Virus record (IMG/VR): IMGVR_UViG_3300032163_000106
Span: 1-23,532 of that record
DNA from: a virus
DNA: 23,532 nucleotides
Strand: one strand, 5' to 3'
Shown here: positions 5,874 to 22,346 of the stretch, piece by piece
Layout: the number at the start of each line of letters is the position of its first letter
Position numbering within the stretch: the stretch's first letter is position 1
Program-made: the position numbers and the translations under genes
Notes under the pieces: model-generated
Told to the model about the DNA's origin: nothing
Seen by the model: only the letters and a program-made list of their open reading frames with translations
Database searches by the model: none

Positions 5874-6580
5874 AAGATTTACAAACAATTCAATCTAGCG
5901 TTATTGCAAGAGCTAAAATTGACCCGTCAGATACGACTTCTATCGGCTTGATTCTGTCTGATGCCAATGATGCCATTGGAATTGTCGCCGCACAGATGAG
6001 TTTTGAGGAACTTTGGCGCTCTGCCAGTATTTCTTTGGCTCTGGCTGATGGCGACAAGCTTTATTCATTGGCGGCTGATGTGGATAAAATAGAAACGGTT
6101 GGCATTTCAGCACCAACTAACTTTGCAAAGCAACTCATCAATGTTCCAAGAAAAAACATCTTAAATATCACTTTGCAGAAGACAATCGGTGGCACATCAA
6201 CACCAACTTACTGGTATCTAGCTATGCCGACAATTGATTCAGTGACTAACACTGAAACTAAAAACATCTCTTTTGATTTGATGCCAGACCAAGCATATAC
6301 AATTCTCTACACTTATAAGGCCTACGCGCCGCTACTGGCTGCTCCTACAAGCTTTCCGTTCTTTGACCCTAACTACCACTACATTATTGAATACTATTGC
6401 TTGTGGCGCTACGCAGAACGCAACCCTGACCCGACACTCTCTCCTGATTATTTCAGAGGCGAGTGGGAAAATGGCGTCAAAGAGCTAGTGTCGAACTACA
6501 AAATGAAGACAATTGACGCTGTGCCAATCGGGACGCCAATAATTTCAAAGGGAAACGCACCAATTAGCTGGAGGCCTTAA
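5870..6580 (+). CDS. Head-tail adaptor-like protein (podovirus SU10-type)
   Basis: 236 residues starting in an ATGA overlap, with TAGGAG at 5858-5862. Residues 1-50 form two helices (LILSDANDAIGIVAAQMSFE, ELWRSAS), then come strands with a typical adaptor pattern (DKLYSLAADVDKIETV) and a later helical part ending YHYIIEYYCLWRYAERNPDP and YFRGEWENGVKELVSNYK. The pattern of N-terminal helix pair, beta insert with YTY-type strands and C-terminal helices with a WRxAxRxxD-like stretch is that of adaptor proteins sitting beneath the portal in podoviruses. Position directly before the nozzle-like gene supports this. Identification is by pattern, not by a strict motif. Confidence 0.6.
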   Translation: MKDLQTIQSSVIARAKIDPSDTTSIGLILSDANDAIGIVAAQMSFEELWRSASISLALADGDKLYSLAADVDKIETVGISAPTNFAKQLINVPRKNILNITLQKTIGGTSTPTYWYLAMPTIDSVTNTETKNISFDLMPDQAYTILYTYKAYAPLLAAPTSFPFFDPNYHYIIEYYCLWRYAERNPDPTLSPDYFRGEWENGVKELVSNYKMKTIDAVPIGTPIISKGNAPISWRP

Positions 6581-19386: not shown

Positions 19387-20613
19387 ATGAAGTTTCTTGT
19401 ATTTGACTACGGCTTGTTCGCTACCCACGCGGATAAATTAGCTGACAAGGGGAAAAACAAGGTCTGGTATTATACGCAGTGGGAGAGTGGTTTTCCTTGC
19501 TACGATAAATATATTGTCGGCGAGGGCACTGAAGTCGAGAAAATAAAATACTTTTGGGATAAAGTTGACGAAGCTGATTGCGTTGTCAATTTTGATGTCT
19601 ACGGCAACGACATCATTGAATATCTGCGGAAAAAAGGAAAACGTTGTTTTGGCAGTGGCAAAGGTATGATGCTAGAAAACGACAGAGAGCTAATGAAGAA
19701 GCTTTTGGCTAAACTAGGGCTGCCAGTCAACAAGTATGAGAAAATCATCGGCACAACAGCGCTACGCGAGTATTTGAAAACTCACAAAGACAAATACATC
19801 AAGATTGATTTGTTTCGTGCCAATTTAGAGAGCTTTCACTCAAAAGATTACACAGCTTCAGAGATGATAATTGATGAGATGGATGCGGTCTTGGGTCCAA
19901 TGAAAGACAAGTTCCCGTTTCTTGTAGAAGACGCGATTGACGCTAAAACTTCAGTCGAGCCCGGTCAAGATGTTTTCTTCAATGGCAAAGCTTTTGTTAA
20001 GCCATATCTGTATGGCTACGAGATTGCCAAAGCGTTTTACATTGGCAAGTTTGTTGATAAGCTGCCGCCTCAACTTCAGAACACTCTTGATAAAATGACG
20101 CCAGTTTTGCAGAAGCTTGACTATCGTGGCGCAATTTCATTTGAAGAAAAGGTTGTTGATAAAAAGACCAGTTACTTACTTGATGTCAGCGCAAGGCAGC
20201 CGGCACCATTATCGGCCGGCTATGTTGAGTGGATAAAAAACTATCCTGAACTTATCTACAAGGTTGCCGGCGCTGAAGACGTTGAAATCAAGTCAATCGC
20301 TAAATATGTTGGCGCTCTGCCATTACAATGCGGCCACGCCAAAGACCACTGGGTTCGCATATTACTAGAGGACAAATACAGAAAAGTCGTCAAGTTCCGT
20401 CAGTTTGTTAAAAACAAGTATTACTACGCAGTGCCCGGCCTTGATGAGATTGTAGTTCTGATAGCGTGGGGCGATACGATTGAGCAGGTCTTTGATAGAA
20501 TTGCTAAACTAAACGATGTTGTTGACGCTTACGGCTTGCAAAAGGATTTGACTGGTTTAGAAGAAGCGCGGGAACAGATAGAAAAAGGAAAAACTCTTGG
20601 AATTGACTTCTAG
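19387..20613 (+). CDS. PurD-like ATP-grasp ligase
   Basis: 408 residues, starting seven bases after the holin-like gene (weak AAGGA at 19378-19382). The layout resembles phosphoribosylamine-glycine ligase: an N-terminal Rossmann-like part (MKFLVFDYGLFATHADKLAD; VDEADCVVNFDVYGNDIIEY), then GKRCFGSGKGMMLENDRELM and KKLLAKLGLPVNKYEKI, equivalent to the segment before the ATP-grasp fold. Later come FLVEDAID (nucleotide-contact strand) and YRGAISFEEKVVDKKTSYLL with DVSARQPAP, where the metal-binding E/D..N.R motif lies. ATP-grasp enzymes join a carboxylate to an amine using ATP. Here the substrate may be a purine precursor or a phage-specific molecule such as a modified nucleotide. Several canonical PurD residues are not obvious, so PurD activity is not claimed. 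Confidence 0.7.
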   Translation: MKFLVFDYGLFATHADKLADKGKNKVWYYTQWESGFPCYDKYIVGEGTEVEKIKYFWDKVDEADCVVNFDVYGNDIIEYLRKKGKRCFGSGKGMMLENDRELMKKLLAKLGLPVNKYEKIIGTTALREYLKTHKDKYIKIDLFRANLESFHSKDYTASEMIIDEMDAVLGPMKDKFPFLVEDAIDAKTSVEPGQDVFFNGKAFVKPYLYGYEIAKAFYIGKFVDKLPPQLQNTLDKMTPVLQKLDYRGAISFEEKVVDKKTSYLLDVSARQPAPLSAGYVEWIKNYPELIYKVAGAEDVEIKSIAKYVGALPLQCGHAKDHWVRILLEDKYRKVVKFRQFVKNKYYYAVPGLDEIVVLIAWGDTIEQVFDRIAKLNDVVDAYGLQKDLTGLEEAREQIEKGKTLGIDF

Positions 20614-20616
20614 ACC

Positions 20617-20647
20617 TGTGGATAACTTGTGGATAACTTGTGGATAA
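20617..20647 (-). repeat. Three tandem perfect DnaA boxes, 11-bp period
   Basis: TGTGGATAA, the complement of the DnaA box TTATCCACA, occurs at 20617-20625, 20628-20636 and 20639-20647, with CT spacers making an 11-base unit. All three are perfect matches to the consensus and lie on the same face of the helix. They start four bases after the ATP-grasp stop and are followed by an AT-rich stretch (20648-20672). This is the arrangement of an origin or of a DnaA-controlled promoter. Confidence 0.85.
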
Positions 20648-20666
20648 CTTTACGTTATGTTATATT
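20638..20666 (+). promoter_or_regulatory. Possible weak promoter overlapping DnaA box 3
   Basis: TATATT at 20661-20666 is a good -10; the -35 position 17 bases upstream is TTGTGG (20638-20643), matching only TTG. The -35 lies inside DnaA box 3, so DnaA bound there would affect polymerase. The start would be near 20673. Confidence 0.35.
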
Positions 20667-20672
20667 GTTTTT

Positions 20673-20769
20673 GTCAGTGAGCGCACATTAACTACCCGAG
20701 AGGAGTTTGATGGTAACGCAAAAGTCTGATAGTTAAAAGCCGTTCTGGTGAAAACTGGGGCGGTTTTTG
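20673..20769 (+). ncRNA. Possible short RNA or leader with 8-codon mini-ORF
   Basis: A transcript from the weak promoter would run about 97 bases to the terminator at 20735-20769. It contains GAGAGGAG (20698-20705) and ATG 20710, encoding MVTQKSDS with the stop at 20734-20736. The stop overlaps the first base of the terminator stem. This looks like a leader peptide with an attenuator, or a small RNA. Transcription is not proven. Confidence 0.35.
20735..20769 (+). terminator. Intrinsic terminator of the late operon
   Basis: AAAA-(G)-CCGTTCTGG (20735-20748) pairs with CTGGGGCGGTTTT (20755-20767) including G-T wobbles and one bulge; the loop is about six bases, and TTTTTG follows at 20764-20769. 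A-rich on the 5' side and T-rich on the 3' side, it could work in both directions. It separates the lysis/ATP-grasp transcript from the replication module. Confidence 0.75.
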
Positions 20770-20774
20770 TTTAC

Positions 20775-20803
20775 TTGACATAAGATTTTAGTAGGACTAT
20801 AAT
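20775..20803 (+). promoter_or_regulatory. Perfect consensus sigma70 promoter of the replication module
   Basis: TTGACA (20775-20780), a 17-base spacer (20781-20797) and TATAAT (20798-20803): 12 of 12 consensus positions and optimal spacing. Transcription should start near 20810, giving a leader of about 119 bases before the initiator gene. It lies directly after the terminator, so expression here is independent of the late genes. Confidence 0.92.
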
Positions 20804-20809
20804 TAAAAA

Positions 20810-20928
20810 TGTAAAGCGGTTTATTGGGCAGACATTTTTATAAAAAGACTATTGCAATAATCTTTGCCCCGAAAGTAACTGCCTAAACCGCTTTGCTTCG
20901 GGGCATTTTGGTATAAGAGAGAGGTTAT
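20810..20928 (+). promoter_or_regulatory. Structured leader with two interleaved helices (switch- or pseudoknot-like)
   Basis: Helix 1 pairs AAAGCGGTTTA (20813-20823) with TAAACCGCTTT (20884-20894) and GGCAG (20827-20831) with CTGCC (20879-20883): 16 pairs with a 3-base bulge. Helix 2 pairs TGCCCCGAA (20865-20873) with TTCGGGGCA (20897-20905): nine pairs, followed by TTTT (20906-20909). The arms alternate 1-2-1'-2', so the helices interlock. The links are only five and two bases, so full-length helices would fit together poorly and alternative folds are more likely. Helix 2 resembles a weak terminator. GAGAGAGG (20917-20924) is the initiator's ribosome binding site. I do not recognise a known riboswitch or ribozyme class. 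Confidence 0.6.
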
Positions 20929-21651
20929 ATGAAAACAAGAGTAGTCCACACAAAATTTTGGCAAGATAATTTTATATGTTCATTAAACCACAAAGAAAAA
21001 TTGTTGTTCTTGTATCTTATAACTAACGACCGAGTGAATATATCCGGAGTTTATGAATTACCGGACAAGACGATTAGAAATGATGTTGAGATGACAGAAA
21101 TAGAATTAGAAAAAGCCAAAGAAAAATTTCATAACAATAAAAAGTTTGTGTTTTTTAATGGTTGGATAAAAATTATAAACCTAGAAAGATACCAAAATTA
21201 CACCGGTGAGAAAAATGATGTTTGTAGAGCCAAAGAACTAGAAAAAGCACCACCAGAGCTACAAACAGATACCCTATCGATACCCTATCGATACCCAACC
21301 GATAGTCCTAGTAATAAGAAATCAGTAATAAGAAATCAGAAACTAGTAATAAGTAATAAGAAAGAAGTAATAGAATTAACTGAATTATTATTTAATTTAG
21401 TTTGTAATAATTATCCGTTTGTTAAAAAGAAAGAAATAGTTCAAGCAAATTATGATGATATAGAAAAATTGAATAGTTTAGATGGTTATAGTTTCGATAT
21501 TATAAGGGCTGTAATTGATTGGTCACAAAAAGATGACTTCTGGAAGCAAAATATTCGGTCAACTAAAAAACTACGAGAAAAATTTGAACAATTATTAGTT
21601 AAAGTTAGCGGTAAATTAAACGAAAGAAAGGTGGTGAATTTTGACAACTGA
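20929..21651 (+). CDS. Phage replication initiator (winged-helix, O/replisome-organiser-like)
   Basis: 240 residues, GAGAGAGG upstream. The N-terminal ~95 residues (FWQDNFICSLNHKEKLLFLY, LITNDRVNISGVYELPDKTI, FFNGWIKIINLERYQNYTGE) match the winged-helix DNA-binding domain of phage replisome organiser/DnaD-like proteins. A basic, low-complexity linker (about 110-145) follows, whose DNA contains iterons. The C-terminus (FDIIRAVIDWSQKDDFWKQN, IRSTKKLREKFEQLLVKVSG) is the helical helicase- or loader-interaction part with the usual DDFW..NI.S..KLR..FE pattern seen in O-type replication proteins. It probably binds the iterons and recruits the host helicase. No phage helicase or loader gene is visible in the window. 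The codons are markedly AT-rich compared with the structural block. Confidence 0.8.
   Translation: MKTRVVHTKFWQDNFICSLNHKEKLLFLYLITNDRVNISGVYELPDKTIRNDVEMTEIELEKAKEKFHNNKKFVFFNGWIKIINLERYQNYTGEKNDVCRAKELEKAPPELQTDTLSIPYRYPTDSPSNKKSVIRNQKLVISNKKEVIELTELLFNLVCNNYPFVKKKEIVQANYDDIEKLNSLDGYSFDIIRAVIDWSQKDDFWKQNIRSTKKLREKFEQLLVKVSGKLNERKVVNFDN
21268..21360 (+). repeat. Iterons and purine-rich repeats inside the initiator gene (candidate origin)
   Basis: Three tandem 11-base units: GATACCCTATC at 21268-21278 and 21279-21289, and GATACCCAACC at 21290-21300, followed by a partial GATAG. Next come two 14-base repeats AGTAATAAGAAATC (21310-21323, 21324-21337) and further AGTAATAAG at 21345-21353 and 21352-21360. 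The first set is GC-mixed, the second A/G-rich and easily melted. Binding repeats followed by an A-rich strand inside the linker of an initiator gene is the layout of the lambda origin in gene O. Confidence 0.75.
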
Positions 21652-22160: not shown

Positions 22161-22346
22161 ATGGAAATCAAAGATTGTCGAATGTACACAGTTAAAGAGT
22201 TGGAAGAGATACTTAATTTGGAACGCCGGCAGGTTTACCGTTTAATTGATAGAGGGTTATTGCACGCTGTTCCAACAAGATTCAAAGAAAAAAGACGAGT
22301 TATCGGTAAGTTTCTTAAGCAATATATTAACGGAGGGAGAAAATGA
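22161..22346 (+). CDS. Excisionase-like helix-turn-helix DNA-binding protein
   Basis: 61 residues with AAGGAG at 22146-22151. MYTVKELEEILNLERRQVYR LIDRGLLHAVPTRFKEKRRV is the classic small winged HTH_17/excisionase pattern: a first helix with K-E-L-E-E-I-L, a turn at N-L, a recognition helix R-R-Q-V-Y-R-L-I, the D-R-G-L-L wing and a basic wing strand, then a closing helix (GKFLKQYING). Proteins of this class act as excisionases, transcription regulators or recombination directionality factors. No integrase is visible, so a regulatory role in early expression is just as likely. Confidence 0.75.
   Translation: MEIKDCRMYTVKELEEILNLERRQVYRLIDRGLLHAVPTRFKEKRRVIGKFLKQYINGGRK

Follow-up and report, generated by a model that had tools for sequence, protein, structure and literature searches.

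The window analysed here is the whole stretch of 23,532 nucleotides of the viral record IMGVR_UViG_3300032163_000106, and the feature under study is the untranslated leader of its replication initiator gene. This gene, which encodes a replication initiator or DnaD-like helicase loader (phrog_2514, E = 2e-22; phrog_4880, replisome organizer, 2.3e-15), lies directly behind the leader, as an earlier note on this DNA had proposed. The promoter that the same note had called consensus-perfect matches the sigma-70 consensus at 12 of 12 positions, and transcription is predicted to start at about 20810, giving a leader of 119 nt up to the initiator open reading frame. The features of the locus are as follows.

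20775–20803, plus strand: sigma-70 promoter, TTGACA (20775–20780), 17 nt, TATAAT (20798–20803)
20811–20831, plus strand: segment 1 (1a, 20811–20823; 1b, 20827–20831), the extreme 5' end of the RNA, pairing with segment 1'
20844–20865, plus strand: hairpin P3 (AAAGA C TAT TGCA ATA A TCTTT), flush against segment 2, from the minimum free energy (MFE) fold
20865–20873, plus strand: segment 2, 5' arm of the terminator-like hairpin P2, nine contiguous pairs with 20897–20905
20879–20896, plus strand: segment 1', within the P2 loop and abutting segment 2', pairing with segment 1
20897–20905, plus strand: segment 2', 3' arm of P2, pairing with segment 2
20906–20909, plus strand: short U-tract after P2, a weak terminator tail by its sequence
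20920–20924, plus strand: AGAGG, probable Shine-Dalgarno site by its sequence, 4 nt 5' of the ATG at 20929
20929–21651, plus strand: replication initiator or DnaD-like helicase loader gene

Three tandem perfect DnaA boxes (TGTGGATAA) at 20617–20647, in the gap that separates the upstream gene from the leader, are likely to be a replication origin. A second short transcription unit occupies 20660–20769; its possible promoter overlaps the third of these boxes, and it closes with a strong terminator hairpin (20734–20769), 5 nt ahead of the leader's promoter. Further upstream, a large open reading frame (19387–20613) looked ATP-grasp-like by eye and had no Pfam or PHROG match, while a small HTH_17/excisionase-like gene 3' of the initiator (22161–22346) may hint at a temperate phage.

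Interlocked helices in the window's leader

Helix 1 (P1) has a core of 13 contiguous pairs between GTAAAGCGGTTTA (20811–20823) and TAAACCGCTTTGC (20884–20896), extended by five pairs between GGCAG (20827–20831) and CTGCC (20879–20883), so that in the MFE fold it totals 18 pairs with a 3-nt bulge and not the 16 pairs first counted. Helix 2 (P2), for which the original count of nine pairs was correct, joins TGCCCCGAA (20865–20873) to TTCGGGGCA (20897–20905). The segments follow one another in the order 1-2-1'-2', as had been described, directly 3' of the promoter, with links of 5 nt between segments 2 and 1' and of 0–2 nt between segments 1' and 2'. A descriptor of this topology scored 53.8 for the leader, which was its sole above-threshold match on the plus strand of the window, while the best score in dinucleotide-model shuffles equivalent to two copies of our 853-kb locus set, on both strands, was 47.4. 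These results confirmed that the interlocked layout is real and far above chance.

The MFE fold of the leader (-32.0 kcal/mol, z = -2.1) contained helix 1 together with P3, a third hairpin overlooked in the earlier note, and lacked helix 2. Forced-fold energies favoured P1 over P2 in the window (-31.6/-26.6), and in cotranscriptional MFE folding helix 1 was complete by 20897, before segment 2' was exposed from the polymerase. Behind P2 the tail reads UUUU and then GG. A further helix between segments 1b and 2 (P = 0.0175 in the window but 0.15 in L003, the related phage described below) was not retained.

No minus-strand promoter-like site was found in 20810–20928 at the scan threshold, and the search for a trans complement to the leader elsewhere in the window gave nothing above ordinary best matches. 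Rfam returned no match in the window at gathering threshold, its best sub-threshold matches being at chance level, nor any in the leaders of 12 loci, in line with the original remark that the leader belongs to no recognised riboswitch or ribozyme class. Attenuation of the trp type, through a leader peptide, was not supported: the frames present began with TTG or GTG, apart from a single ATG frame in L170, and no clear ribosome-binding site was shared among them.

Leaders of like architecture in other phages

A search for near relatives of the window phage through its portal, SSB-like and ATP-grasp-like (assigned by eye) genes led to one phage, L003, which carries the single relative of ORF 19387–20613 in the viral collection (65% identity); despite this 65%-identical neighbour gene, the two phages have no similarity in most of their structural genes. 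L003 too has a promoter at the equivalent position, with a leader of 117 nt, followed by an initiator of a different, O-like type. Its elements come in the order promoter, P1, P3, P2, 1', 2', and its helices (AGCGGAAG..GGAGC with GCTCC..CTTCCGCT for helix 1, GCCCGTAGAG with CTCTGCGGGC for helix 2) are unrelated in sequence to those of the window. The hairpin flush against segment 2 repeats the 5-1x1-3-tetraloop shape of the window's P3, including the C.A mismatch, in other letters. Its forced P1 and P2 folds were near-equal (-37.5/-36.0), and P2 is followed by UUU only. L003 also has, at about 5890–6035, a structured, terminated unit analogous to the one at 20660–20769 of the window. A DNA similarity search of phages and plasmids returned only DnaA boxes and noise, and nothing closely related to the leader of the window itself turned up, hence no alignment was available for a count of base-pair covariation; L013 and L014, whose initiators are the most similar to the window's, lacked a leader of this kind over the 350 nt on the 5' side of the gene.

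The topology was also scanned for, on both strands, in 80 viral loci that encode the N-terminal domain of the initiator. The strongest unbiased matches were L040/L041 and L043, all of them 5' of initiators. The L040/L041 leader has a P1 and a P2 of 16 bp each and a T7 run (forced folds in L040 near-equal, -27.7/-28.0), while that of L043 has a P1 of 8 bp, a P2 of 13 bp and a T-run 6 nt 5' of a gene; in these loci P2 is an unmistakable intrinsic terminator whose loop is paired to the 5' segment. Descriptor matches in L059 and L061 were judged unconvincing. Two loci with O-like initiators carry further versions: L170, with a consensus-like sigma-70 promoter, a 17-bp P1 adjoining P2 and a T5 run, and L171, with a 7-bp pairing. 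In L170 as in L043, P2 was the more stable forced fold. When the criterion was generalised to any terminator-like hairpin with complementarity between its loop and the 75 nt before it (668 distinct hairpins), such complementarity was present in 9 of 48 hairpins within 1.5 kb upstream of an initiator versus 7 of 620 elsewhere (Fisher, 2e-7); at P ≤ 0.02, and leaving out the window and L004, the figures were 10/47 initiator-proximal versus 14/620 elsewhere (1e-6).

A further scan covered 71 viral loci and four bacterial contigs, including Polaribacter sp. IC073, and gave 27 distinct candidate leader terminators, from which three unconvincing ones were dropped by eye. All 24 distinct Bacteroidota-phage leaders that were kept had a pairing of 6–14 bp, built from 22 different X sequences of 6–14 nt; X lies in or beside a 5' hairpin, usually in its apical loop, and its complement X' within the terminator loop. 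In a swap test, the pairing total of cognate partners was 486 versus 349 ± 14 for swapped ones (maximum 421 in 20,000 permutations), the cognate score being somewhat inflated by the choice of the best-pairing terminator at each locus. A leader of this kissing type also occurs in a bacterial contig of Polaribacter sp. IC073 (NZ_VORS01000015.1, L164) identical to the viral locus L162, which suggests a prophage in a cultured host. One phage contig that carries such a leader, L032, also holds at 71–144 a Type-P3 twister ribozyme (Rfam RF03154, 48.9 bits).

Near-identical phages in this set differ in their leader cores. Between L095 and L096, a 306-nt initiator segment is 100% identical, the 200 nt downstream 97% and the 40 nt upstream 90%, while the leader cores are only 49.5% identical (48.8% for random sequence), each keeping the architecture with its own X/X' pair. 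The core is likewise replaced between conserved flanks in L098/L099 and seems to be, less cleanly, in L121/L124, and L096 and L099 have a common core although their initiators differ by 3.6%. This pattern suggests that the pairing sequence is a specificity determinant.

As read from these sequences, what defines the group is an intrinsic terminator, placed before genes, whose loop is complementary to a segment or a hairpin loop at the 5' end of the RNA, an architecture conserved among phages of otherwise unrelated sequence, with different letters in the helices. The window's leader fits on two counts, having a promoter-adjacent segment complementary to a terminator-like loop and an initiator downstream.

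A putative switch on transcription of the replication genes

The arrangement found in these many phages is probably an RNA switch on the reading of their replication genes. Our preferred reading, to which we give a probability of about 0.6, is that the leader acts as a transcription attenuator, its own 5' end binding the terminator loop and thereby controlling entry into the replication operon. From the strong promoter, the polymerase would make segment 1, P3 and then the terminator-type hairpin P2 with segment 1' in its loop; on emerging, just ahead of the completion of 2', segment 1' would pair with segment 1, and this contact would set how easily P2 forms at the U-tract and thus how frequently the polymerase reads on into the initiator gene. 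In the window, since the links measure only 5 and 0–2 nt, the full 18-pair helix 1 and P2 should be mutually exclusive on geometric grounds, and since helix 1 would be finished before 2' is exposed, it should favour read-through, the pairing in cis lowering termination. Were segment 1 occupied, by a protein or by an RNA acting in trans (possibly leader present in the cell beforehand), P2 would be favoured and the choice would shift towards termination.

Two proposals of the earlier note thus held only in part. Simultaneous pairing is probably strained in the window, as it had argued, but this does not extend to the group, L170, L040 and the kissing-loop members having links long enough for both helices to coexist; in the kissing-type members geometry therefore leaves the sign of the effect unfixed. 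Its suggestion that a choice of folds decides transcription gains from the unmistakable terminators that form helix 2 in relatives, but the U-tracts of the window and L003 are short (T-runs are longer in L040, L043, L170 and the Bacteroidota set), and the termination it placed near 20909 is not assured. With its weak UUUU-GG tail, the effect in the window could be partly translational.

Purely translational control, in which ribosome access to the initiator start is governed by the pseudoknot or, with P2 open, by 2' pairing to the ribosome-binding region, and no termination occurs, seems to us rather unlikely. It would account for the weak U-tracts of the window and L003, for the short distance from P2 to the Shine-Dalgarno site (15 nt in the window and less in L003) and for the P1 fold of L003, where 2' pairs with the GGAGG region; most other members, however, have their terminator 12 to >500 nt 5' of the initiator and a strong T-run, and they often come from Bacteroidota phages that lack clear Shine-Dalgarno sites. 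The placement directly ahead of replication-initiator operons, consistent across unrelated phages, also weighs against a stable small RNA, that is, a compact pseudoknot freed by its own terminator and acting elsewhere against the host or its defences, with read-through as an incidental event. Promoter-hairpin-terminator units of about 100 nt, a coaxial or kissing geometry suited to a stable fold and the exchange of cores as units are what such an RNA would predict, but in the window and L003 the leader continues into the gene and has no good tail for termination, and we consider it doubtful. Origin-like features do lie close by, namely the three DnaA boxes, as would be expected if the complementarities were fortuitous or, as inverted repeats, belonged to a replication origin at the DNA level and had no function as RNA; the result for cognate versus swapped partners, the enrichment against other terminators and the recurrence in unrelated sequences of the fixed order promoter-1-2-1'-2'-T run make this highly improbable.

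The attenuator might also work in trans, as an RNA-only, protein-free immunity or copy-control switch in which a resident leader, by pairing with either segment 1 or segment 1' in a freshly made leader that shares its specificity, forces termination of the latter. We regard this extension as tentative and on balance unlikely, and keep it mainly because leader cores are replaced between near-identical phages. If true, it would block the replication of identical phages and account for the wholesale exchange of matched-loop cores between near-identical ones.

Comparison with known systems

In ZTP and fluoride riboswitches a pseudoknot competes with the terminator, and pairing of upstream RNA with the terminator loop or arm decides termination; the leaders described here differ in having no conserved aptamer core or sequence and no Rfam match, and in serving phage replication rather than metabolism. 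HK022 put exemplifies the structured antitermination RNAs that open a phage early transcript and affect termination, but it consists of two hairpins without terminator-loop pairing and acts on distant terminators. In phage P4 immunity, complementary leader segments (seqA, seqB and seqC) and the CI RNA terminate transcription before the replication genes (PMC4825925). The likeness is that a phage replication operon is preceded by a single untranslated leader whose own segments are complementary and govern premature termination; in P4, however, the CI RNA is processed and trans-acting, whereas here segment 1' sits inside the terminator hairpin's own loop, and what we observed in sequence is cis complementarity and core replacement only. 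The pIP501 RNAIII/repR system, in which an antisense RNA attenuates a plasmid initiator gene through loop pairs (PMC4981023), likewise combines attenuation in a replication initiator leader with loop-loop contacts, but the complement in the window's leader is in cis, on the same strand, and no antisense promoter was found. Neither P4 nor pIP501 has the complement within the terminator loop of the same leader, and the literature that we searched, with partial coverage, yielded no description of this arrangement of 5' end and terminator loop.

Being conserved by architecture and not by sequence, leaders of this kind are invisible to sequence-based RNA databases. With the phage pairs whose cores have been replaced, an immunity-type role can be tested directly. 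Repressor proteins are usually credited with the control of phage replication; if our reading is true, these leaders would represent a new, easily missed class of RNA control at a key lytic decision point.
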